Assembly: GCF_037975245.1 (NCBI RefSeq)
Contig: NC_092580.1
Location: forward strand, 29,601,501 to 29,665,500
Source of the DNA: Apostichopus japonicus
Taxonomy: Eukaryota > Echinodermata > Holothuroidea > Aspidochirotida > Stichopodidae
Direction: 5' to 3'
DNA: 64,000 bases
In this document: in pieces, positions 23,054 to 56,651 of the stretch
Numbering within the stretch: position 1 is the stretch's first letter
How the letters are laid out: every line of letters begins with the position of its first letter
The notes under the pieces: model-generated
The model's database searches: none
Seen by the model: the letters and a program-made list of their open reading frames with translations, nothing else
What the model was told of the DNA's origin: nothing
Program-made: the position numbers and the translations under genes

Positions 23054-23176
23054 ATGGCCACCAAACCATTGGCAGTGAAATTCCTAGTTACCATGGTGAT
23101 GATGTACCTTATGTCAGTAATCAGAGCACAAGACTGTTGCACATATCCATCTTTAGAAACAGATGATGAATACCAG
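23054..23176 (+). CDS. Gene B exon 1: signal peptide
   Basis: ATG in AAGATGG has A at -3 and G at +4. The peptide MATKPLAVKF...SVIRAQ has a basic start and a hydrophobic core, with likely cleavage after Ala-25 or Gln-26. DCC follows. The donor is CAG|GTAAGT, phase 0. Confidence 0.8.
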
Positions 23177-26100
23177 GTAAGTCCAGATTGCCATATTTAT
23201 CAAATTTATTATGTTTAGCCACTATGCCAATTATGGTGACCAGTTATAGACACAAAGGGGGGGGAGGGTTAATTCAGCTCTCAAAAGTCCCATCTGTTAT
23301 ATACTCTCCGAACATATCAAGTTGAGATGACATACTGCATCACCAAGTCTCTACTTGGAGTTCATAGAAATATTACTTTGACCCCAACAGGATGGTTTCT
23401 AAGTCAACGTGGATAATGGATACAATTTTTGGTGTATAAAATATGGTGTGGAATTAAAGTAAGCAAAATTCTAATAATTATTACTCAGATCTCATGATTA
23501 ATATAGAATCTATCCACTCTTTTTGTGTGTGTAAGAGGGGTAAGTGGGATTCAGTGGGTTGGGGGTGGGGTAGAAAAGAATATCTGTTGGGAGATGAACT
23601 AAAACATTTTCTATGACCAGACATCAATCAAACAGTGATTCAATCCATTTAAATAACCAAGTTGTAATACAGTACCAACTGCAGTGGCATTGGTGTTCGC
23701 ACACATTTGCCTAACCAACTTGTAGAGTAGACACCAGTACTAAAATGCTCAGCATTTCTCGTTTACAGCAACATGCATACAGTGTACTGCACGTACATGT
23801 ACAAGTGTTGTTGACTTAACATTTAGGTGTGTATAGCCTTCCTTCTTTATGAAAGCTCTCTGCAACCTTCAACCGTTTTGTGCCTGGCATGAACAGATCT
23901 ACATAACACCTTTTCAGCTAACTGGGACAGGTGTGAATTTTTATCAAAAGCAACTTTAGTGGGATCATAATCATCATCCATGTGTATTAAATATCAATCA
24001 CTTCACATAGAAACGTCGGTTTCAGTTTATGCATCCCATTTATACTTACGTATTTTGTGACCTATAAGAGCCCTGAATGGCATTATAAAACGGTGGAGTT
24101 TTTGTCAACATGTGTGATACATAACACATACATATATACGAGGTAAAATTTATTGCCCGTCTTCAACGAAAGCGACAATCAAGGCTTTTGAAAAACTTTT
24201 ATGGCACAGGAAGAGAAATATTTCCTTATTTTGTACTTGTGTGTATACTCATCAGTTAGAGATTTCATGTTTTCTAAGTAAGAATGCACTTTTGTATGCA
24301 CGCAGCCATCTGTAGTTTGACATCTCATATCTCTCCAGCATTGCTATAGAATTCATTTTGAAACAAGAAACTTTCCAGAGTGCACTTCACATTATGGTTG
24401 CACTGAACTGGACCTGCCATATGTTGGTACGGGCATTTCAAAACGGTATGCATTTTTTTTTTTTTGGCCATACACATGAACATTACGTGTTACAAAACTT
24501 TGGAGCTTTTAAAAGTGCTGTACAAATCTTGAGCGCTTAATTATTCTCTGTAAATACCTCATTACCAACTAAAAACAAGTTAATGACACATATTTATTGT
24601 AGAAACCTTGTTGAATAGTATTGCAGCACTTGGTGTTTGTAATACATGACTCATTTCATAAAACAGAAAAGAAGGATGGTATTCAGTCTGTGTATCTAAA
24701 CTGTTCTTTTACAAGTCAGTGATTTTGAATATCTTCTACAAACAATGCACATGATAGGCTACTATGTGTAATACATGTACTCCTTTCATCGCAAATGCCT
24801 TTGTACTGTAGCTATGCTGGCAATAACACAGCCAGAGTGAACTAAGTTCAAGGTAGCGGTAATAGCGAGAGAGATATTTTTGCACTGCAATACAACGAAA
24901 GTGCGAGTGAAGGCAATGTGTTCATCTTCATCCTACCACCTATGGACAGGATTCTAAAGCAATGTCATCAATTAATTTCCCAAAAGGATGTCAGAAAGTT
25001 TAACAAAATATTTGAGCAAATTGATAGGGTGAAAAATTAACTTGCCACCAAGGAGAGTGAACAGTTGATGAAACAGCATCAAAGGATCTCTGCAAGTCTC
25101 TTTACTTATGTGCACCCCAAACAGCCACAGATTCAGGGGCTGGTGTGGGGATGTAAACCTCCCCTCCCCCTCAACTCTTTATGTTTTTTTCAATCTCATA
25201 CAAGAATTATAAAATATAAAATAAAACTTGCATTTGTAAGCAATATGTTGCATCGGCAAAAAGCCATGATGCCCCTGATAATTTGCTGAGGTGCCCAATC
25301 CACCCAGCCGACGGCAAAAGTTGCCGTCATGTCTTGTTTGTTTCTCCATCGGTGCCCCGACCATCTTTCAGTGCTATACATTCTGAGAATTACACTATTA
25401 GTTACACGTACAGAGTAACCCATTCGTCCTTCGCATTGAAGACTTGCACCAAACCGCGTGCCACCTCTGAAAAAGTTAACTATCTGTTGCTTGCAAGTGA
25501 AGTTTTTTCTTGTAGCTACAAATTGCAGACATTAATGAAAATGAAATGTGATACCTTGTTATCTTAAGCTTGACCTGAGATGTCCATCGCTGCTATGTAT
25601 ACTGTGTTGTGGGTATTGACACATGTAACTGCATATATTGACTGTGCACTAGTATCTAAGTACCGACGGTAGCAAGCTGTGTGTGTATTTTCTGGGATCG
25701 ATGGTGGTGTCTAACACTTCTGTTACACCTCATTGGAACTAAGTCGGAGACATTTCTTTGTGCGCGAGTCTTCACACCCTTTAAGTCAATGGGACTTATT
25801 CATTGAGTTAACTGTAAAATTTATCCATATAGACCTAAGTTACTAAATAATCCTTTTTTTCCTTTTTTTCTTGCAAAGTGCCTACAAAAAAAGAGCTTTC
25901 ACTTTACAATTTAAACATATACTGAGTCATAAAAATAATTGGAGCATGCAATATATATTTGCATTTCTTGCCTGCATATAGTTGGCTCTTTGTCACCAAT
26001 AATCAGTCAACAGACCTGCAGTCTGCTGCAGAGTATTGTTGCATGGACCTACCAAAGTTTTACATGATGATGATTAGTAAAGGTGGAAGTACAGTACAAC

Positions 26101-38100: not shown

Positions 38101-41100
38101 ATAAATGGGATCATGAAAGCTTAGTGTGAACTTTGTAAAAGCTGTTTGTGCATGGCTAAAATCATGGCCAAATTCATGAATATATTGGTTGAAGTGGCAT
38201 AGAGTTGATTGGTATAAAATTTGTTTCCTTTAAGAGAGAAAACTAATGTGGTATCTATATTCCCATGCATAGATCTACAGTAGTTAGATAAATGTCCGTA
38301 AACTACCCATAGTTTCTGGAACAGTGTGTAGGTCCTACATTACTTCATACATATTTGTGGTAGGATATATGCATAGTTGTTATAATTCACAGGTTGTCAT
38401 TGATTCAACACTGTTGAAAGTATGTAACAGTATATATGCATAACATATATTAGGATCCTCTTTGAGTTTATCTTGAGAAGTTTTTTATACTGTTCGTTAC
38501 AATTATTGAATCATGATTCATAAGAACTTAACAATACAAGAAGGAAGGACTTCAGGTAAACATTCATGGCACTGGAATAATTCTTCAATAACTGGAGAGG
38601 ATTTTGAACCCAAGCTCCCATAATGCAGATATTTACATGCCTAAGAACAGTGGATATCAAGGCACATGGTGACAAGCATGCAATTTCTAATAAAGTTGAA
38701 GTAGTATGGAAGATACCATATCCATTCTACAACCCTGGATTGGTATATAAACAACAGACCAATGGCAAGTTGCCATCACAGGCTATATGTTTTTAGCCCA
38801 TATCTACTTTTTCATGGACTAATAATTGCCCATATATATGCATTGAATTCTTTTCCAGCTCTTGATGTTCCTTTTAAAGGTATTGAAGACTCGCCCCAAA
38901 CAGCGTGCGGCCATCTGAAAAAGTTAACTTTCCGTTGCTTGCAAGTGACGTTTTGTTCGTGTCGCTACAAAATGCAGACAGTAATGAAACGTGATACCTT
39001 AATTGTTATCTTTAGCTGGACACGAGATGTCCATCGCTGTACCGTTTGTACACTGTGCTGTGGCTATTGACCGCAGCTGTATGTACTGGCTGTACACTAG
39101 TGTATAATTACCCACGGTAGCAAGCTGTGTGTGTATCTTCTGGGATCGATGGTGGTGTTTAACACTTCTGTTACACCTCATTCGAAACTAGGTCAAATTA
39201 CCGGCATTAGACGTTTCTTTTTGCGCAAGTCTTCACACCCTTTAAGCTGTATTTTGGCACTGTACCATTACTATGCGGTTTGAGGAAGCATTTGGTATTT
39301 ACCTAAAACATAATCTGTCACCTAAAGCAACCAAAATTACACCAGCCGTGATAGGCAAAAGCTTCAAACATTTTCATAAAAGCCAAAACATCACGAACAG
39401 TTTATTGGAGTACATATATATAGAAAACTTTCTGAATTGGACTGAACAAGTATTGGGGGCAATTTTGCTACTGTTAACTAATTGGATCAGCCAACTGGTT
39501 ATATGTAACTGCATGCACAAAACTATTTTACTTACATAGAAGGGAGGGGGGGGGGGATTGGGGGATGGATCCATTAATGTACAATAACATGTCAGGACCC
39601 AAGACAATTGAGAATACCGCTTTAAACAGCTTACTGTTTGTCCTCTCCGCAGGTTTGGACTGTTCCTGGTGACGAAGGTAAGTGTCAAAACTAAAACTGC
39701 TTAACAATGACATATTTGCAAATTATCTCAAATTTTACTGTACATACAGATTATGTGCATCACATCAATATTTAGCTAATAAATACCAGAAAGTCTTTGA
39801 AAATGTCTCGCCCTCCATGTTAATTATCACGAGAGAATGAAAACTTTATTGCGTTGCTAATGTTTCTGTAGCTGGGGCGGTTTCCAAGATATTCAGCTTA
39901 AAGCATCAGTTTTCAACAAGTAAGAGAGATATTGAAATTCCTGGACTGATAGCAGTGCTTTAATTTTATAAACAGTCTACAGCAATTGTTATTACTGTTA
40001 TTATTTCTTAAATATTTGTGCCCTAAGGTCACCCTTTTATTTGTTCGATTACAATCCCATTTTCAGAAATACATGGTCACTTTAATATAAGACTTGCTGA
40101 CCAAACTTAGAAAGTTTCTCTTTAATTGTGAATCTTCCTGCAGATGGTTACTGCTATCCCTTCGATTGCGGGAATCCCGAAGACACCAGCAAAAGTAGAG
40201 TAATCTTCAAATCGGTGGACGTAATTTACGACGCGAGGTGTCGACCGGCTACAAATTCTGAAGGCGACTGCTATCAGCGAGAACACTGGTCCTACATTGG
40301 GCTCGATATATCTTACAGTGAGTTTGATGTATTCATGGAAATAATTCAACGCTTTAGGCTTCAGGAACTTGATATGTTACATGCCATCAGTAGTTGACCT
40401 CACTAAACTAAACGTCGATGTATATATGAGGCAGCAGGCAGCTTAGCTGGGTAAGGTTAAATGGGGTTGCGTTAGAGATCGGTAGTGTGCATGAGTACAA
40501 ATCCCAAGATTACGAGTACAAAGTCCCAAGTACGAGTACACTGACTAAAGTTATACTACTGGCAAACGGCGAAAGTCCACAGCATTAACCAGCGGTAGAT
40601 ATTGTCTGAATTCCGAGGCCAGCAATATATATGTCATCACACATTGACAAAATAACAGACCCCTAGATGATATGACATACGTATAAACCAGGATTTGTTT
40701 TTTTCTATATGGAACAAGGATTTTCTGAAGAAGCACCCCCTAAAGAGTTTCAACGGTTGCGTATACATGCTTATAACATGATTTGTGATTCTTTTGCCCT
40801 TTAATACAGTCGCAAACTAAATCTGGTCAGTTTGAATGTTTTTTGACAGTTGACATGTATCCTGAAACACAGACCGACTTTGTCGTGTAGTCCAAGTCCC
40901 TTTGAAGTGATTCCTGACTGGTTGATTAGTGGCTTAATTGAAAATAAATAAAAGTGATTGTATCGTAAGTGGACTTGTACATCATGGTAGCAGATACTCT
41001 TGTGGTCGTTGAACAAAGAAGAGGAGATTGGGGGGGGGGTGGGGATGGGGGGTGGGGGGTGGGGGAGAAAAAAATGGCTATATAGCTATATTTGCATGCA

Positions 41101-44100
41101 GCGATCTTTAAACTTGAATTTGCAAACAAAACAGATTTTTTCTGAATCACAGTACGTCCATAACCTAGACGTAAAATAATGTTTCCTCCACTTCAAATTT
41201 CATAATATTTTTTTGACATTAAAATTGATGAGTGTTTGATACAGGTCTCTATATGGGAGCAATCTCAATGTTTCTAATTCTGTTGATCACCAGGGCTGTA
41301 GTTTTGTTGTAAAGCTTTTAATTTCGATGCAATTTATTTCAAGATTTCAGAGACAGATTAATGAGCAAAACATATATCTTTCTTCATTAAAGTTTGCTGC
41401 TTGTGCAATGACCTAGTAGGTATGCTTGACTTTATATGCTTGAATGTATTTTTTTCCTTCTTTAAATCACTTAGCTTGTTTGTTTATAGTTCACATCTTT
41501 CGGGTTGCTTGTGATTTCTGTATCAGAGCTGTGCAAATGGGTTATTGTTTCAGTCATTGGTTAGAGCATTTTCTGTTTCGTTGTAAAGACATAAAATAAG
41601 AAGTTTGCTCTTTGGAAAGATTTCACTTTCCTTTTTAAACCAACTTTCTCTTAATTGGCTGTGATTTTTCATCTGTGCTTATAATCCTGGATGAATAAAA
41701 AAAAACGACAAAACCAGTACCCTGCAAGCCCTCCCCCACCCGCCCCCGGCAAATTATTGTGCAAAAGGCCATTCAAACCCAATCCGCAATTCTTTAACCT
41801 CATGCAAAAGGAAAAGCTAGCAATAGAAAAAAGTTCTTTACTCCATAACTGCAAACACACCTTGCTTTTGATGTCATATGAATGTTTTTTTGTATGAGTG
41901 TTTGTTGGTTCTTGGCAAACAGCAACAAAGAGTTGTAAGCAGACTGCAAAATGCAGGGATAGGCTGTATAAAATACATTGTATGCCTTGTGTATGCTTGA
42001 CTGCAAGATAATACAATATAGCTGAAACCACACAAAAGAGCTGATCAAAATATTAGTTCAATAGTGTTACCCTTCTGATGTGCTAGAGCATGGCCCTGTA
42101 GGTTCAACATTTAATGGATCATACTAGCATTAACCTTTTGAAATTTTTCTACTATGATTCATATCAAGTACAAAACGAAACAAAGATACAAATTGTTGAA
42201 AGTTTCAATTTTTAGCCATTTTTTGTAATGGGATTGGAATGTGATATGAGAAAGTTTCTTTAGAGAAATTTTTTTAGGAATTTAAATGTAATAATTTGTT
42301 ACTCCCAAGAAATGGGAATGGATGCCCTTAAGCTTAGACCAATTCCAGTCATAATCTGAGTAAGGAAGTAACGTGTGTGTTTGGTAAAGTTCACCTGATG
42401 GCCAATACTCAAAGAACTGCACTCAGGGTATAGAGAGATATACATGTCAGTTCATCTTGCAAAAGAGGCAGTGAAACATTACTTAGATAACCTCAATACA
42501 TTGAATGTTAATTGTTGTTTGGATAAGGTTGGAATTGTTTTATTTTTTTTATCATAATCATTTTCATGCCTAAGACGGAAGCGTTTCTCCTTGGTCTCAG
42601 AAATGCCTTCAGTAAAGAAATACATTTGTGAATTTACTAGAAACTGTTTTTCATTTGCACGAGATGGTATTTCCACCTACTTTCAAAGTCTGACATTTGT
42701 GTCATAAAAGTTTTAATGTATATATATATGTTATTTATGAACCCTCATAACCATATTTAATATCGTAATCATTTTCTTAACATAAGAAAGAAGCAAAGCA
42801 TAAAAAGTCTGACAATTTATATTTCTGAGAAATATTAAGGACTCGAGAAGTATGACAGAGTCTTAAGAAATGTGGAGGAGTTGCTATTAAACATTCTATA
42901 GGGCATATTGTGTATTGTCTTTAGGTGTGATTAACTACTTTCAACCTGTCATTAAGTCAAAATTACAAAACATACATCAAACTACAACTTATGTTGCTAT
43001 ACCTTAGAATATAAATTACTTTTCAAAACTGGGAAGTAAGATTTCTTTGAAGTGCTCGAGTCAAAAGGAAAGAAAAAAATAGAAACCACAATGATAATAA
43101 ATTATGCCTTTTTTTTCTTCATAAATTTGTTTTCCCACTCTCAGCTTTTACAGAAGGAAGCAATTCCACGGCCATTGTTTTTGGACTCAAGACTTTAGAT
43201 GGAGCAGTTTCTCCAACTATTGGTACCATGGACAATATATGTCATTACATCTCCCTCAATGACACAATGAGAGGAGACCAAACACATGACGTAAGTTACA
43301 AGTCATAGTACAATGTTTGCGGGTCTGGGAAATGGTGGAGTACGTATGGTCTCCGGACCAAACCTTGGGGTAATGTGGACATGGGAGGTTGAGCCAGTTG
43401 GCGCATGCTTTATTGTGATTATAAAAAGTGCCCTTTTGTTATATTTCAAGTTCCAGTTTGTTGCAAAATTTTCTAAAAATGTACATAAAACTATAAATTT
43501 TGAGGCAACTAAAAGTCACATGTCCCACTGCCCTCCAAAGTGTTTCCTTCTCCCCCTCCCTCTCCCCCCCCCCCTCTTCCTCCTATGTTGCACCCTCTTC
43601 CATTGCCTGTGGTATTAAAGTTGCTACTTGAGATTGCTGTTTAAAACTTGTCAGTATTGGACTCAAATTTCAGCATTCAAGTAACGTTGCTTCAAATTTC
43701 TTAGAAATATGACCCACCGTACCTGCATAATTCTTTGATATCGAGATGGGTAACTTATACGGCGTGTCGTTTGTACCATCCCTATGTTGTCGTCGCAAGA
43801 AGTATTTTGATGTCGCAAAGACCTAGACTAGTTGACTTTCTCTGTGAGAGAAAATGCTCGTCAGGTTTAATTGGCATTAATGCTCATTGAAGGCAGAAAA
43901 TGACTGACCGTTTGTTTGACTTTCTATATGGAGGTATTTTAGACTCTATATATAGCTATAAAGAGTCCGAAAAAGTCCAACAAAACAGAAAGTCTATGTG
44001 TTGGAAACAATGGATTAACGACTTATACAAATTAAAGCATATACACTGTACTGTAGTTACAGTGCTTCTTTAATAATCCATTGATGTATGGATAATCTCA

Positions 44101-46078
44101 GAATATTTCAGAAGCACCCGTTAGCTTCATCAACTTCAAAGTGAATGTATTTAATTAAATTTAATTAATTTTAAATTAAGTAATAGCTTATGCCAAAAAT
44201 TACATATCATATACCCAGGTTTACAACACTTTATTGTAAAAAAATTTATGAAGGCAGTTAACTTTTATAGACTCTATATAAGAGTCATATCGAGATACGT
44301 ACGGTAAATACAAAGACTATAGATACATTGCTCAAATCAGTCTTATATTGGTTTGCCACAACAGTCTTGCTGGAGTTCATGTAGGATTAGGAGGACTAAA
44401 ATCAAATGGATCAGATATTCAGTCTAGGCCAGCTGGTACATGCAGTACAGTGTCAGAATCAGTAATTGTAAACCAGTCATGACTCGAGTCACTCGCTCTC
44501 TAAAGCGACTAGACTTGTACATCATTGGTAAACGTTTTGCACAGTTATGGAAATGAAGACTGCAGTGACTTGAGGCACTCAATAGACTTGAGTTGACAAA
44601 CATTTCCAGCTGTGACTTGTTACAACTCTGATACACAGTATGCCTGATCAAGGGTAGGCTATATTAATTGTTCTTCATATCCAATAAATTGGGGTCCGAT
44701 CATGGACTACAGTATTGCCAAGTAAGTCATTTGTCTGGGCTATGTGATAGTATTTTTATTTATGAGTTATTTTTGTTGTTTTGAGACTGAGTTATTTTGC
44801 ATAATTCTATCAACTGAGTTTTATTGTTGTCTATTTTGACTTTTCCTTCCTACCTGTCACTACAGAGCTGTTGCACTCTTATTCTTAGGGTGGTGCAAAT
44901 GCAACTTGTTAATTTTTCAAGCTGCCCTTTATAGGGGAATGTCATTCTGATCCAATCTGGTCAGCCCCCTCTCATTCTACCAAAAAAATATAACTTATAA
45001 ATTTGGGAGAACCTGCTCGGGTAAATGTTTCTTAATCTTTTTATTATAATTGCATATATTCATGTACATGATAAGATTTTATTTTTAATTTTTTTCTCCT
45101 CTTTGTATTCATTTTGGTATCTTCCTCTAGAGCCTGTTTCACTACACTGGATTTGTCGGGCTACATCCTGCTGCTAAATATGAGTTGACCGCTAGGCCCA
45201 TGTGTGGTCAAGTTTCCACCCAAGAAATAACAGTACAGGGTATGTTAGAGTCACCGTATCAGTTTACACGTTTTCCTTTTTTTCATATTTCAACAAGTTT
45301 TTATCTCACAATTTTAAACAGTTAGTGGAATCTATTAAAACAATTAAAGCATCAACATAAACAAGTAAGCCTGCTCTAACTAGCTAACATATATCATCAA
45401 TATAGCCTTTAAAGTAAAATTCCTGTGATTTAGCATTTTTCTAAAGTTTGAATATCTTGAAAACTGGAAATAGCCATGGAGACATTACCAGCACACAATT
45501 TTATTTCCCCTTGGTTTTTTCACTTGGACTGTCACAAATCAAGGCTATAATTGTGCCTAGAGTCATCCTCTACGGCCTCGATCGTTACGCTGACAATATG
45601 ATTGATATTACTGCTTGTTTTTGGCACTAATGTGTAGGAAACAAATCACACAATGATGAAGATATCAATGCACCATTGTGCAGAGACAGGGGGAATGAAA
45701 AAGATAAACTCATGTCTTGTCAGTATTACCAAAAATGCTTTAGAGTTTGGTATCGGTTGGGTCGTGTGTATAGTGAAATGAAAGAGGTCTTTAGAGAATA
45801 AAGTCAGAGGGATCTGTTTTATTATGTTTTAATTTTTACAACAACACTTCTATAATGTAAGCCACAGGATAAAGGTTGCATGGGTTGTTACCTCCTTCAG
45901 TGAAGACTATACTCATTCTAGTTTCATGCGAAGCTGCATTAGCCATTACACAAATCAGAGGTTGACTTTAAGCACAGATATGTTATATTGAGGTACTTAT
46001 TTGTTTTTCCACAAAAGTAAAAAGTGGAGGGAAGTCTTCCATCAAGCTTAAAAGCTTTACAGTGTGGAAGACTCCCTG

Positions 46079-46110
<32 letters not shown>

Positions 46111-49100
46111 ACACATTATAGACTGTTATAGACTGTTAGAAGAATATTCCAGGGTTTTCATATTAATCATAGATACCCACCAAAAATTAGTAAACAATAT
46201 GTCACTACAGTATACAATTTATAGTTTGAGAAAAGAAAAATGACTTTTCAGACCCACCACAAGCTCCCCCCATATCTTAAAAAGTACATATATGGCTGTG
46301 ATATATATCTGACATATTATCTTTGTCCAGACTGTTCAAATTATTTCTAGGGCCTAGACCATTTGGTCCAACAACAACAAACATGGCCCTTCTTAGCCAC
46401 TGCAGTGTTGCAATATTTCAGACCATTTAGGGAAGGCTCGCAAATTTAACCGGCGATGATCGAAGGCCCAGCCAGCAGCACACCACTGCTCATTATGCAG
46501 TCTGCATATCGCTCACGCTTGAGTGCACACACCCACGGTAACTCCGTGCAAGTAATGAGCATTGAGCTCCCAACACAGAAGCGCTGCTATTGTTTGTAAA
46601 CAAAAGCGGTACTTGCCTTTTCCTGGTCTGTGGTTTTTACGTAACAATGGCACTCTGACCACAGTAGAAGGAGATTTATTTCAAGAACGAGTTGAAATCT
46701 TCATGAACTATTTTCGTATCGAATGTTTCAAAATACTTTCAGACTTCTTTTCATGTACAAAGTATTTTCATTCACTAACACTGATCCATCTCTCTTTTCT
46801 CTACTCGAACAGTAAGTTGGTACACCTTTCAAATTTTACGGAAGATCGAGCAAAATACTTTCGAAAAATTCACGCGAAACTGGCATAACGTGCTAAATGC
46901 AACAAATGCCATGTAAACAAGGCTCTAGTACACCCATTTATGAATAAACCATACGACCACATCTGCTGTTAAGCGGGGGGAAAAGAAAGTATTTTCTAGA
47001 ATTTCCACACAAAAAAGAAAAAATAATTATCCTACCATAGTTAAGAGTATAGTACATAGCCTAACCACTTCGTCGGTTACGGATCTCACGTAACAACAAA
47101 AACACAACTTATTGTATTTTGCGAAGTTGACGTTTTCTACAAGGACATGGAAAAAATATTGAGCATTTAGTTAATCATGCCAAGTGGCCAAAAACATGGG
47201 ATTGCAAGGTTTACTTTGATAAAGATGGCCATACTGTAGCTATTGGGGCCTTGATATCGTGCTATGTATGTATGGTATAGACTGTGCCTCGTGTATCATG
47301 GGGAACAGATTGTTTTGTTCATGCGGATGTGTCGGTTAGCTTGAGGTGTGTTTTATATACATCCATGGTTTTACTTTGTTACGGGGATATAAATTTTCTT
47401 GAACGTCTAAGATAATATTTCGCATAACTTTACCGATTCTTTACTGACTGACCTAATTAATTCTAGAGTGGAGTCAAAATAGTTTACTCCATGAAAAGTT
47501 TTTTGGAAACGTGCCAAAAATGTTAACAAACAGGTGTTAGACGGGGGTTGTTGGAAAATCCGCAGCACATGTACAGTAGCCTACCGTGATATTTAAGTCG
47601 GGGTAAACACTGCAGTTAACTTGTAAACTGATGTACGTATAAAGCACGCTGTTTATTGTTAGGCAGTCTAGAAACGGGGCTTTGCCGAACGTAGTTTGTT
47701 TCATAATATCGTCAGTTTTGTAAGTTAAACTTTTTAAAGATTGTCAGACAGGTTAAATCTCTTTTCATTTTATCACATAATATAGCTACTCTAACTTGTC
47801 TCTAACAGCAGACTGTTATTTTTGCCTGGCTCTGATGAAATACTACAATCTCAAGTAACGTTGACAAGTTGTCAAGAAATAAATGTCACGCAATGTGATA
47901 CAAAAAGTCATATTACCCATTCATGAAGGCTTCAAACGCAAGTTTTCAAACATTGGTTCAGTGTATAGTACAATTACAACTAGTCATACCGTTGTAGTCT
48001 GAACCGAATTTATGCTTTATGCTAAACGATCTGAACAAACGTAATTTCTCAAACTAAATTAAAATTATATCATTCGTGACTTCGTTACAACTAAAGCCAA
48101 GTAACTCTACTATGAATAAGAATTATTTGGTTTCTTTATTAGCCATTCCATTTCGTAAAGCGCCATGCAATAACAATTTTTCTTGCACAAGTCGCGAACT
48201 GTTCAGGTTTTTAAAACCCGAAAGCAGCTGCGCAACGTGAAAGTAAGATCACGCACATGTCTTAGCCTACTGTCTGACTGCATGATTCACTTGGAGGTGA
48301 TTCTGCATATAGATACGTACGAGAGTTTTAATGGTTAGGCTATATATTTACTGTCATTTCAATAAACTGTTTATAGTACGAACGAAAGAAAAGTCCCCAC
48401 AGGTTTGAGAGATTGTCTAGAGCATTGATGATGTAGGTTTTTGTGTATTAAGGGATTCAAGACCAAACGGAGTGTCTCCGTTAGTTCAATTACAAAACAC
48501 GAAATAAAAAATAGCGATGAAAGCGCCACGTAAAATTCATGTTACGAGCACAAACCGTCAGCAAAGTACACACAACTGTGTAGTAACTCAATGCAGTTAC
48601 AGTAGCCTATATGTAGTAGCTTTATTGATAAACAATTCTCCAACCTGCAGAGAAAGTTCTATAACCCTTTTGTGTACATCCTGGACCAAAGTGACCAGTA
48701 CATTGTCTGGTCTTCTTTTGTGCATAAGAGGCTTAATTTGTGGTCTCATAGTCAAGTGCATACAACTGTCCACCGACTCTTGGAAGGCAGGAAATGTGTG
48801 CGTTCAGGCATGACTCATTACCAGCTGGTTGCTGTGCTCATTACACTGGATAGCAACGGTTGGGCCTTCGATCATCGCCGGTTAAATTTGCGAGCCTTCC
48901 CTTACCAACATGAATGTAATATCACTAGATAAATACATAGTGTTGTGACTTATGAATGAATCGAAAACAACTGGTGCTATGGAATCACAGATAGTAACAT
49001 ATATATATCTAATTTTCTTATTCCAGATTGTTTCAAACTCCGCAGTTCTGACAAACATATCGATGACTACTTTTGCAGTAAATCAAGTAAGAAGAATTAC

Positions 49101-52100
49101 AAATTTTCCACAATCAAGTAGTCTTGTTTTTTCTCTTTCTATTAAGGAACTGAAATTAATTGTTATTAAATTAGTTGTTAACAATTGACAATTCATAATC
49201 ATGGACGTTAGATTATGAATCTAAGAAACTGACTTCGGTCAGCTTGCGGCTTTAATAAGCCAATGAGGCTTCTTCGCAAGTTCCTGCTTGCAGGAGGATC
49301 TAAAATACATACATAGGCTTATAACGTTTTTGGGTGAATAAAATTATCAAAATGTTCTAAAGTCGATCAATGAAAACACATATTTCAACTTTCTCTCACT
49401 GCTCTCAAAACTTTTTGTATCACTGAACTTGAAGATATACAAAACAAACCTTTATTAAGCTGATCGGCAGATAGCCGATTGAAGTGTATCATATCTGACT
49501 AAGGTCACTTTTACATTTGATGGTCAATCTATCTGGAATAGTTTTACTATTGCATGCATGAGTATACCAAGAAAGGCAATCAACGCCTTCATCCCCTTCC
49601 ACATATCCCCCTCCCGGTTGCACCCTCTCCATATCCTCCCACCCAAGCTTCCCCCTCACTACCATGCAGAGACATAATGCAAAATATACCAATATACACA
49701 CAGCTTTACTGGAAAGCTGGAATTACACATCTGCATTACATGGCAACCCTATCAATGTGGTTTAATATAGCACGGAGGCCATTATGTTTTGTAAAGCAGG
49801 CTAAGAATGTGTTTTAATTAGTGCAACAATCTTGAATTGATATGACATTTATCTGTTTAACTATATGTTGTAACAACGGTTATTAAATATGTGTTATTTT
49901 CAAAGCCACATTCATCAACATTTGCATGTGGGCTTTTTCCATACATTGAATTGTCACCTGTTTTGATTTGCCACAGGCGCGTAGCCAGGAATTTGCCAAG
50001 GGAGGGCCAACCTTGTAGGCAAATTATCCAAGCCGTAGATTTGGCATTGGAAGCTATATAAGCGTAGTGCGACCATGAGTTGGCGTGAAAGAAAATTTTG
50101 GCCGAAAATGCCTCCCAGATCGCTGGAAATGGCACTTTCCAGGCCTTGCAAGTTGCATCTAAGCATTTTCTATTGGAAATTACTAGCGTTATCATAAAAA
50201 CGTACAAAAAAAATATGCTCAAGGGGGGCGGTTGCCCCCTTCGCCCCCCTTCCCCCTTGGCTACGCGCCTGATTTGCCACCTCTTGAACTCTCATACTAG
50301 CAGATGAAATAAACATCACTGTACTCCTCTTACATTGAAAGCCAGTGTCTACATTGAAGCAGCAATTAAAAAAAAAGCCTTGCTAGTTTGACCTAGAAAA
50401 GTTGTCAGAAGTGAAACTTGTGATTAACCATTGAAGACTGTGATTGCTGTACATATTCTGAGAACTTCCCTCTTCCTTTGACAACCATAAATATGGTTCT
50501 TTCCTATATTCAATTTGTCTGGGTTTTATCCAAACAAATAGTGACAAGCAAAGGTTTGCCCCTATCACTATTATCTAATTTCAAAGTATACAACTGATGA
50601 CTCATTTGTTATAAATTTGATATTTGCTTTTGGTTTTTTTCTTTTGTCATCTATTTAATTAAGTGCTTGTTTATTGGTGATGTTTCCTCTTTCTGTTTTC
50701 CATGTATTTGTCTTTGTTCACGGGGACCTTACATTTAGTTATAGCTTCTTTGGACTTCCCCTCAACCCATTTTATTCATTTACATTCATCATTTCATTTA
50801 AGCTGCTTAAAGGTACACATTGTCTCACATTTTTGTATAACTCTACATACTATAAGTATGTCAAGCGACGATGGTTGAAATAAAGTTTTTCAAATCAATC
50901 AAATCATTAATTTCTCCCTTCTCTAAAGCTCCAGCAAGTTTTCTACCGTCAGTGGGGGTTAACAGCAGCCTGTTTGCATATTGGACGGTCTGGCCTGAAG
51001 ATTCTCCCTTCACCAGTTACGTGGTCGAATTATTGTCACTATCATTAACCTTACTAGAGAAGGAAACAATTCCTTACGAGAAGAGCCGGGTAAGGCCATA
51101 CATTTGCTATCATATTAACAAAACTCTACAATATTGAACATTTCTAATGGATTGTTCTGTTTCTGTATGTGCGTAACTTCTAAAAACCAAGGGTACAACC
51201 TTCAACAGAGAAGCATATAGTCATGGATTCCCAAGTTAGTTTCGAGATTGGCGGTGGCAGGGGTCAGACCAATGTACATGCAGTGGTGTTGAGCTTGCCG
51301 CCCGTGGAAGGACCATGTACATATGAAAATCGTTGCCCTGAAAATTTTCAGGGGCCATGGCTCCCCACACCTCTCCCTTCCTCCACCCCTCCTCTGACCA
51401 TCATTTGGCCCTGGTATTACTGAATGCCGATAACTGGTCACGACAGCTATAATTGAATGAGATATATTTATGAATATTTCACTATTTCTGTCTTACAGTC
51501 CAATGGTACACACATGCTTATGACTCATCAGTTCCCGATCTATGCACCTGGGGAATACTATGTGGGGGTAAGCAACGCTCGTTTCTATTGTTTCAAGCGT
51601 GGAACCATAAGACACTCCACGAGGAGATCACCTGTTGTAAAAACTTGACTGTGGAAATCAATCTGTTAGAATTTAGACTGTCGGTTGTAAAATGTAATTT
51701 GCTTTATGTCTTATTTAATAAGCTGAAACCTGAAATTTATTAGAACTTAACCTAAAACAAGGACAGCCCATGATCATATCTGAAAAGTGTTATACACCCC
51801 ATCCATTTTCTATTTTGGATGAGATACAATAGTTTACATGATTTAGTGTAGGTGTCACAACACCTCCATCGATTCTTGGCCTCTTTGTCTGTGGTCACGT
51901 GTAGTAGCTACATGTTCTTTAAACAGGACACAACCTTTTACCAGGATCATGTGACACCTCACCTGACATAACGTCATCATGATCATAAGGTCACAGTCTT
52001 CATCTATAAGGGGACTGGGGTTCAGAGTGGATCAAGTTGTCTGACTCTTTTTGCCCAGGCATAATGTTGGGTGACTATTCTGAATATGTATCATGGACCC

Positions 52101-55100
52101 AATAATCTACCACAGTACTGGCAGTTGCTATGTTGGAACGTCATTGTTCAGCTACAAATATATCAGCAACAGCCCACCTAAGAATGAGATCAGATACTGA
52201 ATTTCGTCCACGACAAATCTGTATCCATTGTATGTATACATGTCATCATAAAGTAACATAACAAAAAGTATGGTATCTTTTCCTGACAGTTTTCTGTTGT
52301 ATCTGATTGTAGCTGATGTGATGGTACATTAGCTTAACATGATACTGGAACCTTTTTGATTGTATGACAGCCTTTCCATGATAAATTTGAATTTAAATAC
52401 CGAGCATCATATCTTGAATTTACTCCAAAACCAATGTACATATATATATATATATATATAGCTGCAGATCAAACCTATACATAAAGGCTAAATGTTGGTG
52501 CAATCGTTCAGATTCAGATGATGGAACTATGAGTCCTTCTGTTATAACAGATTAAAAAATAAGGATTGGAAATCGCAGCGGAGTCATTTTCCCAAACAGC
52601 AAACTTACACAAAGCCTCCATTGACATTTATCTAGCATGTCTCGACACAAGAATTCACTTCTCATTTTTGTTACCGTGCCATGAATGGTAACAGAAACAT
52701 AGCACTGCAGAGGTGCCAACAATTTTCTGTTTTATTTCTTACTGTCGATAAAGGGTGTATGCATTCGTCACCCTCCCTACACACTTCTGACCCAGTCTGA
52801 AGGGAATTAATTCAAAATGTAGCCCTTTACCCATTCTCTGTTGGTGTTTGCAATACAACAGATTTATGCCCAACCAGACAAAGCCTGTAAGGGAGACCCC
52901 CACTGGCCCACGGATCAGTGTAGTGCAGTTAAAGCAAGAGTGAGCACCGCAATTGGTGAGTTTTTTTAGTTTTTACTAACTGATGATGAGGGGCGTATAT
53001 TTCCTTGTTTTATATCGTGTCTGTGTGATGATAGTAGAAGAACACTGCCTTTTATCAAGCTTTCTATTTTCTCTGTTTTAATGAGAAATCAGTGATTACA
53101 GTATCTGATATGAGACTTATGTTGGTTTATTGAAGAGGCAACACTGGGTGCCCTGTGATCCACTCAAATGGGTCAAATGGGGTATTTTAGTATAATTGAC
53201 TTTAAATGTTGGCCAAAAGGACATGGATTTTTAATTTACCAAAATGTGTGGAATCAAAGTTATTGCTGATGTGTATGTGGCATGAGATGGAAAAAAAAAA
53301 TCAAAATTCCTATTCCTAGAATTTCTATAATGTTACATTATTGTCATCGACATCTATCTGCATATTTTAGTTTTCTGCTCATCAATGGCAATTTGTGTAC
53401 ATGCCTAGTGTTTGATGCTCATAGTTTATGTACCCCCCCCCAAGATATGCGAGGCAAATACTGATATGTTTTGTAATATCTTACATTAATCCTTGAAGAG
53501 GTCTTCCTAACTGAGACAAATGAAATTTTTGATTCGATCATTCTGAAGGACTCCTCAAGTAGAGCACCTTTTTTGAAAGAATCTGTGTAATGTTTGTTTA
53601 TGTTTTGTTCTACTTATATCATAGTTTCTTGCATTGTCATCATAGGGCGGGCATTATGTACTGCCATGATGCCACTGAGGGAAAATAAAGTGTGTGTCCC
53701 ACTTGGTTCTTGTCTTTACTAAGGCAAATAGAGTTGTTGATTAAATGGTGCAAAGATTTTGTCACAAAAAGCCCATCTCTTTTGAAAAACAATATCAAAG
53801 TCATGAATAAGTGCTATTTGAATGACTTTCAAAACAGAATAAACAAACAACTCTTTTTAAGTGTTTTGTGTGAAAGTTACATCACAACCTTTGTAATATT
53901 CCAACTGGCATAGCATTCTCCTTATTTTCATATCTGTTGTTAGACTATGATTGTTGATGTTTTTTTTCTTCTTCCACTTTAAATTTGAAAGCGATGCAGA
54001 TGGACATAGAGGGATTAATTGTTCATTGAAACTACTGAGTATGAATTTGCATCATCATAATGATTTTTTTTTTCTGTATTCCCCATCGTAATAAAATTAA
54101 TGTCAAATGCATTTTGTTGATCACTCATCTCTACCTAATTCCTCTAGAAATGACCTTCATTTAGTAATTTTGTCACATGATTTTATAGCAACATTAATGT
54201 CAACATCAGTCAGTTCTATATTTTTTTAACCCATTTTATCCAATACTAATTCCTAGAAGGCTGTCAAATAATACTAGTGTGCCAGCTAGGCCAGAGGTCA
54301 AAGCCAGCTTCAGAAATGTCTTGTTTTCATATTTTGGAGGTTGGATGAGAGTGAAAATGTTTCAGGCAGTATTGACAGTAACCCTTGAGTAAAATGCTTG
54401 AATATTTTCAGCCCATCTTATGACCAATCACAAGGGTTTTGTTGGTCCCTTTTTTTGCCCGTCCTGTTTTCTTTGGACAAATTTAGAAAAATAATCGATC
54501 ACATTCATTCTCTGTCAGAAGATCGTCAACATAGTGCGGCCAAATTTTAGCATTCCAAAAAGCTGACAGAAATTTTCAAAGGCTTGTTGATGGATGCCCT
54601 AACCCTCCAAATAATTTTCAACTTGTTCGATTAGTCCTTAAAGAAGTCTCAGAGATGGAAGCTTCTGCGAAACGGCGTGACCATTAATTGACTCTCTCTA
54701 GCTTTAATACATTTCTGGTGTGTCTCTGAGAGATTGCAATTTGTCAGTATATTCACAATGGTACTTTGGCAAATCAAATGCTACGAAAAAACAGAAAAAA
54801 ACAGATTGTTGTGAATGTTCAAAACTGGAATTTTACTACAGTCCTACTGATGGAATTTTTTTTTTTTTTTTCAGTTCATGAAACGGAAACAGTCACAGTT
54901 GAGGCAAAAACGATAAACATAGAACGTACTCTACTGGTTGTCACGCTTGTGGGGACTTTGTTGGTCTTGTTCTGCTTTCTTGGACTTTGGTTAATGAGAC
55001 TTTCCTGTTCAGATCACAACAGTGAGTGGACATTCAGTCATTCATTTTTTTCATCCATCCATTCTTTCATTCATTTTTATATTTTATTCTTTCTATTAAT

Positions 55101-56651
55101 AGTTATATTTAATGGTAATATTTCATCATTTGTTTTTATCCCTTTGAAAAGGAGAAGGGGGGGGGAGGGTAAATTTCGACATCTCTACAGTATTTTTTCT
55201 TGTATATTCAATTGAAAGGTCAATATTTTTGGTTCCAAATGTGACAGAATGCTGCTATTGTGATAAAAGTTGAGCAATTAAAGTGAGAGGGTAGAAAAAA
55301 GGCTAACAAACTGCTTAAGTAGTGCAAAAAGCCTGACGCTTCGATCCTAGCAGGATCTTATGCATAGGCAGACTGGATGTTGAGCAAATGAACAGTCTCT
55401 CTTAAAATGTTTGGTACAATCTCGCACATCAAACTTTTCATGCATATTAAAGTGAAAGTAACATATATTAGCATGAATATTAGCATGAAGGTAAGAATGC
55501 TTTGAATATGTTGAATGGAAATTATTACAACTATTTGCATTTCTGCACTTACCTTCACTGTCATTGCGGTTTCTGTTAGATATTTGACTGTGATGTACGA
55601 GTCTATGAAATTTTTAGAGTCTATGAAGTGTTTAGAAACTGCTGTCTCTGATTGAAGGGGCTGTGAACTTTATAGCGCCAAAAATTCTATGTGTGCATGA
55701 CTCTAGTCTATGAGAAGATGATGAGAATTTCTAACCTGGCAGTTACCTATTTTGTTCCCTGCAGGGCAAATTAAATAGGCAAGCCACCCCCCCCCCCTCC
55801 CCCATCACTCCCTCATTTTTGATTCAGCAGTTGACTATTCTAAGCGATTTATCATGATTCGTTCAATCAAGTCCTAGTATTTGCCACATACACTTTGATA
55901 TCAACTTACACTCAGTACCTATTAAACCTTGGCTCTATATCTTATCTGATTACTTCTCATTCTCATTACTCAACATCTGTCCTGATATTAACTGATTTCT
56001 GCATCTTGGCAATATGCCTGTGTCTTATAGCTCTGTTTTGCCAATTGTGCACACGTAAAGTTTGTATGCATCGATTCAAAGACAAAATTGAAAGCGAATA
56101 TGTCTTGTACGGCCAAAACGAAGATAAACTGAAATTGGAGTGGGTTTTTTGTCTCTCTCTGGAAGCTAATTAATGAGAATGTTAATAATTCCAATCAATT
56201 GTTCAAACTTGAACAAGTGATGTCACGATGTGCATTTTCGTAGCAAATTTTTTTTTTAATTAGAAACTTGACCAAAATCAAAATCAAATCAAATCAAACC
56301 TAGAAGTTACCTTAATGTCTGCTGTAGATTACTTCTGTCAACATTTCTTTCCGATCTGCTTTGACCGTGAGGCGAGACGTGTCTTGTAGGAATTATCGGT
56401 GGAAGCTGATTTAATCTTCATTGAGTCACTGTTTTCAGATTTGGCTATTCCTCTTTCTCTTTCTTAAATTAGTGTTTGAAAACCACTACGACGACGACAC
56501 CACCAGCGAAGGTATAACGTTGGATACACCAAACGAGGACGTTTTGAACAATATACCCTGTGAACTTCAACGCAACCCCAAGGGAACGTTAAAAAACCTG
56601 TCCGACATTGAGATCGGAAATACAAAGGACTGTTTACTGCGCTCGATATGA
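23054..56651 (+). CDS. Gene B: FN3-containing single-pass receptor, IL-17 receptor-like ectodomain, no SEFIR domain (428 aa, 11 coding exons)
   Basis: Exons: 23054-23176, 39653-39677, 40144-40317, 43145-43290, 45131-45239, 49027-49086, 50929-51089, 51499-51567, 52862-52955, 54875-55021, 56473-56651. Every donor/acceptor pair is GT-AG and every phase matches. The product has a signal peptide (1 to about 26, ending SVIRAQ), a Cys-rich N-terminal part, a first FN3-like region (about 90-192, with LHPAAKYELTARP), a linker DCFKLRSSDKHIDDYFCSK, a second FN3-like region (214-320), one helix (about 339-361) and a tail of about 65 residues. The ectodomain has 12 Cys and sequons NST, NDT, NSS and NGT. 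The Cys linker between two FN3 folds and the Cys-bearing end of the second fold recall the IL-17 receptor ectodomain. The tail has no SEFIR signature, so it would be a decoy, co-receptor or a different signaller. The gene model is strong; the family is inference. Confidence 0.78.
23190..25420. other. Gene B intron 1, first part: no element recognised
   Basis: This is AT-rich intron sequence with G runs near 23258-23268 and short open stretches lacking splice support. No coding similarity was recognised. Confidence 0.5.
25427..25784 (+). mobile_element. TTAA-ended MITE, copy 2
   Basis: Its right end CGAGTCTTCACACCCTTTAA matches copies 1 and 3. The left end is degraded (CATTGAAGACTTGCACC without a clear TTAA). 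The internal blocks AAAAAGTTAACT, TACAAATTGCAGACATTAATG and GGGATCGATGGTGGTGTC are shared. It lies in gene B intron 1. Confidence 0.75.
25785..27300. other. Gene B intron 1: no gene seen
   Basis: AT-rich sequence. A C/G-asymmetric stretch at about 26875-26945 is rich in GGGGG. A small triplicated motif (TGTAAACATCGATTG) lies at 27011-27052. Confidence 0.5.
27357..27960 (+). pseudogene. Retrotransposon ORF1 remnant with two zinc knuckles
   Basis: It begins MDILKSLANDIGKKN and is open to 27611. After a stop and frame changes come KNGIRYVRLKLPNNVKSLPY and two CX2CX4HX4C knuckles (CIECGQQGHSTNRC and CCQCNKLGHMGYHC) around 27818-27917. A nucleic-acid-binding ORF1 of this form is usual for several LINE clades. 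Confidence 0.75.
28140..28692 (+). pseudogene. Retrotransposon endonuclease fragment
   Basis: ISLYHRNSRSLNNNFDDINT, FTVIGFAESWFNDNYP and GGVCLFVHKDISF are typical N-terminal AP-endonuclease motifs of LINE ORF2. A frame change near 28400 and another near 28570 break it. It stops at IMGDYN, before the catalytic C-terminal half. Confidence 0.8.
28693..29964 (+). pseudogene. Retrotransposon reverse transcriptase and C-terminal fragment
   Basis: Pieces in several frames: IYKKGDSNVYENYRF, LERLIFNRIFNFL, an AFDTIDH-like stretch, CRVPQGSVLGPLLFVLYIND, ILFADDTSVFF, LSLNVQKCNYIVFN, RTLYQTLIVPHLTYCSIIW and a C-terminal ATKTWNLLRNDLKSKSSVTS ending at 29964. The YADD-equivalent FADD is intact, but stops and frameshifts between blocks exclude activity. 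Confidence 0.85.
30170..31080. other. Gene B intron 1: no gene seen
   Basis: AT-rich, with a C run at about 30371-30382 and several T runs. Nothing coding was recognised. Confidence 0.5.
31084..31888 (+). repeat. 52/54-bp minisatellite, about 15 units
   Basis: Units read GTCATATGGCTGTGACAATG, then ACATG(TA)CCAGCCTTCGCTG and TAATCCAGGGAGCA. A two-base TA insertion makes 54-bp variants. Other variants are CAATG/CAGTG and TTCGCT/TTCACT. It lies in gene B intron 1. The minus strand is open in pieces (HMTAPWITAKAG-like) only because of the repeat. Confidence 0.95.
31890..35214. other. Gene B intron 1: no gene seen
   Basis: This is 3.3 kb of AT-rich intron with long T and A runs (34 kb) and a G run at 35010-35028. 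No exon with in-phase splice sites and no transposon ends were found. Confidence 0.5.
35223..36367. mobile_element. hAT-like element, 1145 bp, TSD GCTCTGGG
   Basis: Ends CAGGGGCGGCGAT and ATCGCCGCCCATG are inverted with one mismatch. GCTCTGGG is at 35215-35222 and 36368-36375. It contains one copy of the subterminal block near the left (35419) and, from 36017, a partial CAGGCGCGTAGC-family piece (CATGCGCGTAGCGAGG) with its own block. Repeated ATATTGGGGGG and GGGGACA motifs lie near both ends. Non-coding. Confidence 0.9.
36376..38870. other. Gene B intron 1: no gene; small tandem duplications
   Basis: An approximately 92-bp duplication lies at about 36800-36985 (TTTTGTAGCTTTAGTCACTT / TTTTGTAGCTTTGGTTACTT). 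A short ATGTATAGGAT repeat lies at 36554-36594. The rest is AT-rich intron with a purine run at 37440-37490. Confidence 0.5.
38874..39245 (+). mobile_element. TTAA-ended MITE, copy 3 (372 bp)
   Basis: TTAAAGGTATTGAAGACTCG at the left and AAGTCTTCACACCCTTTAA at the right are inverted relatives. It is closely similar to copies at 1129-1493 (inverse) and 25427-25784. It lies about 400 bases upstream of gene B exon 2. Confidence 0.8.
39653..39677 (+). CDS. Gene B exon 2: 25-base micro-exon
   Basis: The acceptor TCCTCTCCGCAG and donor AAG|GTAAGT bracket 25 bases encoding VWTVPGDE plus one base. It is needed to convert phase 0 of exon 1 into phase 1 of exon 3. If it is not an exon, the frame from exon 1 to exon 3 fails. 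Confidence 0.65.
40144..40317 (+). CDS. Gene B exon 3: Cys-rich ectodomain
   Basis: The acceptor is CTTCCTGCAG and the donor ACA|GTGAGT, phase 1/1. It encodes four of the twelve ectodomain Cys (GYCYPFDCGNP, ARCRPA, GDCYQ) and ends in HWSYIGLDISY, a beta-strand-like start of an FN3-type fold. Confidence 0.82.
43145..43290 (+). CDS. Gene B exon 4: first FN3-like region
   Basis: The acceptor is CCACTCTCAG and the donor GAC|GTAAGT, phase 1 in and 0 out. It carries sequons NST and NDT and one Cys (NICHY). Confidence 0.82.
45131..45239 (+). CDS. Gene B exon 5: end of the first FN3-like region
   Basis: The acceptor is TTCCTCTAG and the donor AGG|GTATGT, phase 0 in and 1 out. GLHPAAKYELTARPMCG has the L-x-P-x-x-x-Y pattern typical of FN3 strands E-F. 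Confidence 0.82.
45996..46080 (-). mobile_element. 5'-truncated LINE 3' end in antisense
   Basis: This is the reverse complement of the LINE 3' untranslated end at about 30073-30150 (AGGGAGTCTTCCACACTGT ... GGAAGACTTCCCTCCACTTT ... TTTGTGGAAAAACAAATAA). Only about 85 bp remain, as expected for severe 5' truncation. An AT microsatellite (46087-46109) abuts it. Confidence 0.85.
46430..48901. mobile_element. Harbinger-like non-autonomous DNA transposon, 2472 bp, 41-bp perfect TIRs, TSD TTA
   Basis: The first 41 bases (starting GGGAAGGCTCGCAAATTTAA) and the last 41 are a perfect inverted repeat. TTA flanks at 46427-46429 and 48902-48904. Copies of (T)GCTCATTA lie just inside both ends in both orientations (about 46490, 46554 and 48836; variant at 48811). 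A 3-bp TTA duplication and GGG start fit PIF/Harbinger. The interior is AT-rich. The longest open stretch (46562-46888, 108 codons) resembles no transposase I know, so the element is probably non-autonomous. It occupies most of gene B intron 5, ending 125 bases before exon 6. Confidence 0.85.
49027..49086 (+). CDS. Gene B exon 6: Cys linker between FN3-like regions
   Basis: The acceptor is TTATTCCAG and the donor CAA|GTAAGA, phase 1/1. It encodes DCFKLRSSDKHIDDYFCSKS with two Cys. The position and the DC...C pattern match the interdomain linker of IL-17 receptors. Confidence 0.75.
49087..49965. other. Gene B intron 6: no gene; small hairpins
   Basis: Short hairpins lie at 49230-49245 (CTGACTTCGGTCAG) and 49281-49296 (TCCTGCTTGCAGGA). 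Otherwise this is ordinary intron sequence with a C-rich patch at 49590-49660. Confidence 0.5.
49974..50271 (+). mobile_element. hAT-like MITE, 298 bp, TSD ATTTGCCA
   Basis: Ends CAGGCGCGTAGCCAGG and TTGGCTACGCGCCTG are inverted repeats. ATTTGCCA is at 49966-49973 and 50272-50279. It carries the subterminal block in a diverged form (TATAAGCGTAGTGCGACCAT) and the CCTCCCAGATCGCTGGAAAT segment. It is the reference full copy for the fragments at 9386 and 36017. Confidence 0.92.
50806..50915 (+). mobile_element. Probable LINE or SINE 3' tail
   Basis: Sequence ending GGTTGAAATAAAGTTTTTCA then AATCAATCAAATCA resembles the AATAAA plus short tandem (TCAA)n ends of CR1/L2-like or SINE retroposons. It sits just before gene B exon 7 and supplies part of the intron end. 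No body of the element was recognised. Confidence 0.4.
50929..51089 (+). CDS. Gene B exon 7: second FN3-like region, first half
   Basis: The acceptor is CTTCTCTAAAG and the donor CGG|GTAAGG, phase 1 in and 0 out. SLFAYWTVWPEDSPFTSYVV has the Trp and Tyr spacing of FN3 strands B and C. It carries sequon NSS. Confidence 0.82.
51499..51567 (+). CDS. Gene B exon 8: second FN3-like region, second half
   Basis: The acceptor is CTGTCTTACAG and the donor GGG|GTAAGC, phase 0/0, 23 codons. It has sequon NGT and PGEYYVG, the Y-bearing F strand of an FN3 fold. Confidence 0.8.
51568..52861. other. Gene B intron 8: AT microsatellite, no gene
   Basis: An (AT)n run lies at about 52439-52460. Nothing else was recognised. 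Confidence 0.5.
52862..52955 (+). CDS. Gene B exon 9: membrane-proximal Cys pair
   Basis: The acceptor is CAATACAACAG and the donor TTG|GTGAGT, phase 0 in and 1 out. It encodes IYAQPDKACKGDPHWPTDQC, the final strand and Cys pair of the second FN3-like region. It corresponds in phase and place to gene A's stalk exon (298-532). Confidence 0.8.
52956..54874. other. Gene B intron 9: no gene seen
   Basis: AT-rich intron with scattered short open stretches, none with convincing splice sites in phase. Confidence 0.5.
54875..55021 (+). CDS. Gene B exon 10: transmembrane exon
   Basis: A T-rich tract and TCAG precede it and ACA|GTGAGT follows, phase 1/1. A short Thr/Glu-rich stem is followed by TLLVVTLVGTLLVLFCFLGL then WLMRL, a clear single transmembrane helix with a Cys in the membrane. 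Confidence 0.85.
55335..55364 (-). repeat. Second copy of the GATCCTGCTAGGATCGAAGC hairpin motif
   Basis: The minus strand reads AAGATCCTGCTAGGATCGAA then GCGTCAGGC, with the same GATCC/GGATC stem as 17862-17905. It lies in gene B intron 10, with some flanking similarity (CTGCTTA and AGCCTG). Confidence 0.5.
56473..56651 (+). CDS. Gene B exon 11: cytoplasmic tail and stop
   Basis: The acceptor is at TTTCTTTCTTAAATTAG; the alternative acceptor at 56439 would meet a TAA after a few codons. The exon encodes MFENHYDDDTTSEG ... LSDIEIGNTKDCLLRSI and TGA. It is acidic, with no recognised signalling domain. Confidence 0.75.

Follow-up and report, generated by a model that had tools for sequence, protein, structure and literature searches.

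The locus analyzed in this study raises the question of whether an animal gene can carry the ectodomain of an IL-17 receptor (IL-17R) on a membrane protein that has no SEFIR domain. A stretch of 64,000 nucleotides from the holothuroid Apostichopus japonicus (contig NC_092580.1), hereafter the window, was used for the analysis. The gene model lies on the plus strand, with its ATG at 23054 and its stop ending at 56651. Joined, its 11 exons read as a single open frame of 449 codons and a stop, with phases consistent throughout and GT-AG at all 10 introns. Intron 2, at 15.7 kb, separates exons 1-2 from exon 3. The predicted protein is laid out as a signal-peptide-like start, a Cys-rich N-terminus, two FN3-like regions (D1 and D2) joined by a D-C...C linker, one transmembrane helix and a tail of 67 residues. 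The exons of the model are as follows.

Exon 1: 23054..23176, plus strand; ATG, signal-peptide-like start and first Cys pair; out phase 0
Exon 2: 24339..24426, plus strand; Cys-rich N-terminal segment; in phase 0, out phase 1; least certain exon
Exon 3: 40144..40317, plus strand; Cys-rich segment and first strands of FN3-like region 1; in phase 1, out phase 1
Exon 4: 43145..43290, plus strand; middle of FN3-like region 1; in phase 1, out phase 0
Exon 5: 45131..45239, plus strand; last strands of FN3-like region 1; in phase 0, out phase 1
Exon 6: 49027..49086, plus strand; Cys linker joining the two FN3-like regions; in phase 1, out phase 1
Exon 7: 50929..51089, plus strand; first half of FN3-like region 2; in phase 1, out phase 0
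Exon 8: 51499..51567, plus strand; later strands of FN3-like region 2; in phase 0, out phase 0; total score 20.6
Exon 9: 52862..52955, plus strand; last strands of FN3-like region 2, with two Cys; in phase 0, out phase 1
Exon 10: 54875..55021, plus strand; juxtamembrane stretch and transmembrane helix; in phase 1, out phase 1
Exon 11: 56473..56651, plus strand; cytoplasmic tail and stop

The exon boundaries given here are our own reconstruction, made in the absence of the exon list behind the sequence-only reading, which had claimed 11 phase-matched exons. The independently built model has the same end coordinates (23054 and 56651) and reproduces every feature that had been described. Splice sites were scored with generic metazoan weights together with coding content, and exons were then chained by phase. 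An automated search of this kind (penalty 19), run with exon 1 and the last acceptor fixed in advance, recovered exons 3, 4, 5, 8 and 9 exactly and exons 7 and 10 with one boundary shifted each, and skipped exons 2 and 6. The final model, guided by phase and content, replaces this automated chain; two exons of the automated path, 30209-30510 and 39540-39652, were omitted from it. The exons starting at 40144, 43145, 45131, 50929/50935, 51499, 52862, 54875 and 56473 form a phase-compatible chain.

Analysis of the individual exons revealed coding scores near neutral for exons 2, 6 and 10 (0.03, 0.02 and 0.04 bits per codon) and scores of 0.12-0.29 bits per codon for the other eight; the weakest exons of the model are 2 and 6. 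Exon 1 ends in a strong donor (CAG/GTAAGT, 12.8) and scores 0.21 bits per codon. Exon 2 (acceptor 6.5, donor 5.3) ranks 8th by score among the 60 listed in-phase candidates between exons 1 and 3 and was picked over higher-scoring candidates because of its cysteines. Exon 3 (acceptor 6.0, donor 6.8, coding 11.3) is present in the automated path. Exon 4 came out highest among the scanned candidates (total 26.7), and exon 5 (total 21.8) has an FN3-type pattern by eye. Exon 6 was recognised because it is phase-symmetric (1/1), has good splice sites (acceptor 8.5, donor 7.4) and creates the D-C...C between the FN3-like regions. For exon 7 an alternative acceptor at 50935 outscores the adopted acceptor (total 26.4). 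Exon 9 (total 21.6) has a weak acceptor of 4.0, and the acceptor of exon 10 scores 12.2. As a separate observation, an RGD tripeptide occurs at residue 171 of the model, in the part of FN3-like region 1 encoded by exon 4, and may be due to chance.

Comparison of splice chains showed how far the model could be a product of chance. At penalty 17 the best phase-consistent chain over 40.0-56.5 kb, the stretch with exons 3-10, reached 43.3, far beyond the shuffled sequence, where no value in 20 Markov shuffles exceeded 11.7. The reverse strand of the same interval scored 20.7, and two other, mutually overlapping stretches of the window, taken on both strands, scored 26.1, 38.6, 33.2 and 44.2. At penalty 15 the gene stretch scored 62.4, the shuffles at most 33.3, the reverse strand 44.3 and the other stretches 54.1 to 66.0. 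Similar chain scores are thus found elsewhere in the window, and therefore splice logic by itself is not decisive; it is the domain content that lifts the gene model above chance. The other high-scoring stretches may hold real genes.

These comparable chains bear on the explanation that the model is partly wrong, with exons 1 and 2 belonging elsewhere or the locus being a decaying copy. Such an explanation would fit the low rank and neutral coding score of exon 2 and the 15.7 kb, with a retrotransposon and a tandem array, that lie between exons 1-2 and exon 3. It is nevertheless highly improbable in our judgement, given that exons 3-11 run in phase with no stop and that exon 1 supplies the hydrophobic start needed by a type I receptor.

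By tblastn, the best paralogue match in the window outside the gene's own exons had an E value of 0.61 among the matches listed, and Rfam gave no match at gathering thresholds. In prokaryote genome contigs 33 stretches matched a pattern and none was confirmed. Viral contigs gave two matches (45% identity over 40 query residues); L001 was inspected and judged to be chance. The GT-AG introns and the reverse transcriptase ORF of a retrotransposon give the window a eukaryotic look. Overall, the locus as modelled appears to be that of an animal gene encoding a type I membrane protein with a single pass.

Evidence on the family of the receptor comes mainly from the second FN3-like region. Among 24,736 Pfam models, the best family for D2 was Ig_ILCR1 (PF23608, nematode IL-17 receptor). 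Splice-consistent versions of D2 scored 18-21 bits (E 4e-4 to 3e-3), all below the curated cut-off of 27 bits. For D2 alone the E value was 4.2e-4, with no other family listed up to E 10; within the full protein it was 0.003, with profile positions 23-110 of 114 covered. Ig_ILCR1 was matched by 10 of the 12 queries containing D2, at E values from 1.3e-5 to 0.033, both extremes belonging to variants that were not adopted. Since both non-matching queries lacked 16 residues of the 3' part of exon 7, the match depends on the exon 7/8 join.

The boundaries within D2 influenced the scores. A variant with six additional residues upstream of exon 9, where there is no splice site, reached 25.7 bits on Ig_ILCR1; as this unjustified variant scored higher, either a difference of some 5 bits amounts to noise or the border between exons 8 and 9 is misplaced. 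One variant dropped to 14.7 bits. Extending exon 9 while using the acceptor at 50935 lowered the score, and a variant with an exon 7 deletion gave no Ig_ILCR1 match; none of the variants was adopted.

Human IL-17RA and IL-17RB matched the Pfam D1 and D2 models strongly and did not match Ig_ILCR1 (E up to 1). The IL17R_fnIII_D2 profile did not match D2 of the present protein. For the first FN3-like region, none of nine Pfam queries matched any IL-17R model, IL17R_fnIII_D1 and ILCR1_N included. The other Pfam families listed in the queries had E values of 0.049 or worse, and those in D1 queries were at chance level (Raptor_N, 0.049; SPOC, three queries, 0.1-0.23). For comparison, 188 ORFs of the window taken singly (72 scanned to E 0.5 and 116 to E 0.01), among them the in-frame ORFs of exons 1, 3, 4, 7, 8, 10 and 11 alone, gave no match to IL-17R, SEFIR, fn3 or Ig families.

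Pairwise similarity was measured by end-free global alignment with 500 shuffles, three scorings and five comparators. D1 was closest to IL-17RA D1 in all three scorings, weakly (Z 4.3, 1.5 and 3.1); generic FN3 (Z 3.2, -0.4 and 1.9), IL-17RA D2, IL-17RB D1 and IL-17RB D2 were all behind. D2 was closest to the generic FN3 consensus (Z 5.0, 6.4 and 6.6), followed by IL-17RA D1 (Z 3.1, 3.2 and 3.1) and IL-17RA D2 (Z 3.4, 1.5 and 2.9). All comparisons with IL-17RB gave Z 1.8 or below. In the controls, Z was 11-28 for matching domains of IL-17RA and IL-17RB and 0.3-1.6 when D1 was set against D2 of one receptor; the IL-17RA domains aligned to the FN3 consensus gave -0.5 to 0.5. D2 is hence more plainly FN3-like than IL-17RA itself, which counts against the IL-17R reading.

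Local alignment of D1 with IL-17RA and IL-17RB was at chance (Z about 0). Local alignment of D2 with IL-17RA gave Z 3.7, a value reached by 2 of 400 shuffles, but landed on D1 of IL-17RA. With the model lacking exon 6, an HMM-HMM comparison (hhalign) against an IL-17RA/RB profile was not significant (E 0.064) and also placed D2 on D1, and phmmer against PDB listed no relative up to E 10. Identity to human IL-17RA/RB in a MAFFT alignment was 13-19%, the alignment being a forced one that also held a second IL17RB; it misregisters D2 and places the linker on that of IL-17RA/RB.

The cysteine linker was examined at the junction of exons 5 and 6, across which the D-C is formed; the second C follows after 14 intervening residues. 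In the MAFFT alignment, which was unguided, this D-C aligned on the PDC of IL-17RA and the PGC of IL-17RB. The DC...C linker described earlier is thus present, provided that exon 6 is real. A late C...C in D2, judged by eye, also fits IL-17R.

It is unlikely, in our estimate, that the protein belongs to another FN3-type family, such as an orphan FN3 adhesion or cytokine-like receptor whose resemblance to IL-17R comes from the two-FN3 build alone. That assignment would agree with the position of D2 nearest the generic consensus in three scorings, from which the IL-17RA domains are far, with the 13.5 bits (E 0.078) that our own FN3 consensus itself obtained on Ig_ILCR1, and with the lack of any Pfam assignment for D1. 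D2 scores above the consensus on Ig_ILCR1, however, and no fn3 or class I/II cytokine-receptor model was listed for D2 (E up to 10 or up to 1; HMMER filters remove most matches above about E 0.1, which limits the negatives up to E 10), whereas the consensus reached fn3 at 2e-25. The WSxWS motif is absent and no class I cytokine-receptor profile was listed up to E 10; the D-C...C linker and the late C...C of D2 likewise speak for IL-17R. Judging from these comparisons, the case for an FN3 fold is good for D2 and fair for D1, an FN3-type receptor is likely and an IL-17R-type ectodomain is plausible. The earlier assignment to an IL-17R-type ectodomain is retained in part: the sub-threshold match of D2 and the proximity of D1 to IL-17RA D1 favour it, and the lack of an IL-17R model for D1 and the greater nearness of D2 to generic FN3 than to IL-17RA or IL-17RB do not.

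The membrane topology agreed with what had been described from the sequence. Analysis of hydropathy, the sole basis for both features, indicated a signal-peptide-like hydrophobic start, with hydrophobic windows from residue 5, and a single type I transmembrane helix at about residues 360-382 (2.79 at residues 361-379). The tail, put earlier at about 65 residues with its own stop, has 67 and ends with the stop at 56651. It is acidic (13 D/E and 6 K/R) and has no Pfam match. Of 13 signalling or sorting patterns, 12 were absent from the tail (TRAF2, TRAF2 minor, TRAF6, ITIM, ITAM, YxxPhi, YxxQ, NPxY, dileucine, PxxP, 14-3-3 and PDZ class I); the only one found was the loose CK2 pattern, with four occurrences.

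No SEFIR domain (PF08357) was detected by Pfam in the 449-residue protein. Between 54.7 kb and the window end there are 72 plus-strand stop-to-stop ORFs with a length of 33 residues or above; scanning them to E 0.5, which would miss shorter exons, gave no SEFIR, and the best chance match had E 0.011. None was found either in 116 further ORFs of the window (E up to 0.01; best 0.0034 apart from reverse transcriptase). These 116 were drawn from 208 ORFs of at least 62 residues; 14 more of the 208 were in the 72-ORF scan, and the remaining 78, mostly repeats, low-complexity or overlapping, were omitted by hand. The claim of a receptor without SEFIR thus holds for the window ORFs tested, with downstream coverage of just 7.3 kb past the stop.

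Considering that 7.3 kb is short beside the 15.7 kb of intron 2, an alternative 3' SEFIR exon could lie beyond 64 kb. The locus would then be an ordinary IL-17 receptor gene, and exon 11 either a mis-call or an alternative last exon. The donor of exon 10, in phase 1, is good, and possible donors occur inside exon 11 at 56559 (score 2.4) and 56511 (used by the automated path). In sea urchin, the exon between the transmembrane region and SEFIR of SpIL17R1 is described as alternatively spliced, and SEFIR of SpIL17R2 as encoded by the last exon (PMC5457136). Against an ordinary receptor gene stand the SEFIR-free ORFs downstream of 54.7 kb and the coding score of exon 11, which at 14.3 bits (0.25 per codon) is the highest total of the eleven, a value that 4 of 15 similar open stretches elsewhere in the window (both strands) equal or exceed. 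We regard an ordinary receptor gene as somewhat unlikely.

Taking the model as it stands, we favour, at a probability of about 0.4, a single-pass receptor with an IL-17R-like two-FN3 ectodomain and a SEFIR-less tail that would serve as a non-signalling decoy or co-receptor. The exon anatomy is that of a model, and we infer family, ligand and function. IL-17RA contacts the IL-17F dimer through two FN3-type domains (PMC4517768), and the ectodomain of this protein might bind an IL-17-type dimer as two-FN3 receptors do. IL-17 receptors are described as signalling through contact of SEFIR with the adaptor Act1, which the same account reports absent from echinoderms (PMC5457136). Without SEFIR, the present chain presumably could not recruit a SEFIR adaptor and would be non-signalling. 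It could act as a membrane decoy soaking up ligand, or as a co-receptor presenting ligand to a SEFIR-bearing partner. As the ectodomain could bind ligand and the chain could not recruit the adaptor, the simplest reading is that the chain sequesters ligand or presents it. A decoy, a co-receptor or the use of another adaptor had been listed earlier; the list is fair, and a tail without motifs leans to the first two. The more specific proposal of an invertebrate-type IL-17R chain that lacks SEFIR in all isoforms, serves as a dedicated decoy or co-receptor and evolved independently of IL17REL is a tentative possibility.

C. elegans ILCR-1 bears SEFIR, and human IL-17RA and IL-17RB signal through SEFIR. 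The Pfam domains of ILCR-1 are ILCR1_N (PF25519) and Ig_ILCR1; D2 of the present protein matches the latter below its curated cut-off, and the protein differs from ILCR-1 in that D1 has no ILCR1_N match and no SEFIR was found. The ectodomains of human IL-17RA and IL-17RB (PDB 5nan, 7uwk) likewise contain two FN3-like regions and a D/G-C...C linker, and D1 here is weakly similar to D1 of IL-17RA. SEFIR-less relatives do exist, as vertebrate IL17REL (IL-17RE-like) is one: it is described as having IL-17R-type extracellular sequence without SEFIR and a largely unknown function (PMC10143491). IL17REL resembles the IL-17RE ectodomain, whereas the sole IL-17R model listed here, up to E 10, was Ig_ILCR1. 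Like the present model, the invertebrate IL-17R genes SpIL17R1 and SpIL17R2 are split into many exons (17 and 16) and encode a signal sequence and a single transmembrane region; unlike it, they have SEFIR, and their extracellular regions span 535 or 662 residues (PMC5457136). The mirror image is a SEFIR transmembrane protein of Trichoplax, in which an early animal shows one part of the IL-17R architecture: SEFIR is present, and no FN3 domain was detected outside (PMC6321704). No report of a SEFIR-less invertebrate IL-17 receptor was found in the literature searched, by titles and abstracts.

IL-17 ligands are reported to be expanded in marine molluscs and echinoderms (PMC8353272), and 35 IL-17 genes against two SEFIR-type receptors are given for the purple sea urchin (PMC5457136). 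A SEFIR-less chain would escape SEFIR-based receptor surveys such as that of the sea urchin (PMC5457136) and, if the favoured reading is true, could be a regulator or partner chain that has gone unnoticed.

Analysis of the rest of the window revealed several further features. A minus-strand chain in 7000-23000 scores as high as the gene (44.2 at penalty 17 and 66.0 at penalty 15) and may reflect a gene that lacks annotation or ORFs derived from repeats. In the degenerate element of intron 2, CCHC knuckles were seen by eye in an ORF that also matches reverse transcriptase (RVT_1, E 2.6e-8). The possible exon upstream combines a strong acceptor (11.7), a coding-like stretch of 69 codons and a stop; its ORF matched no Pfam family up to E 0.01. 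Members of the interspersed repeat family, which links several intervals, are about 70-91% alike between aligned pairs.

3917-4128, plus strand: possible terminal exon of another gene
27327-29965, plus strand: degenerate retrotransposon in intron 2, apparently frame-broken
2091-3712: tandem array, 43-bp unit x 38
31092-31877: tandem array, 52-bp (or 106-bp) unit x 15
8653-9029, 9385-9596, 11234-11391, 11507-11907: interspersed repeat family
35407-35568, 36016-36238, 49973-50220, 59017-59194: interspersed repeat family
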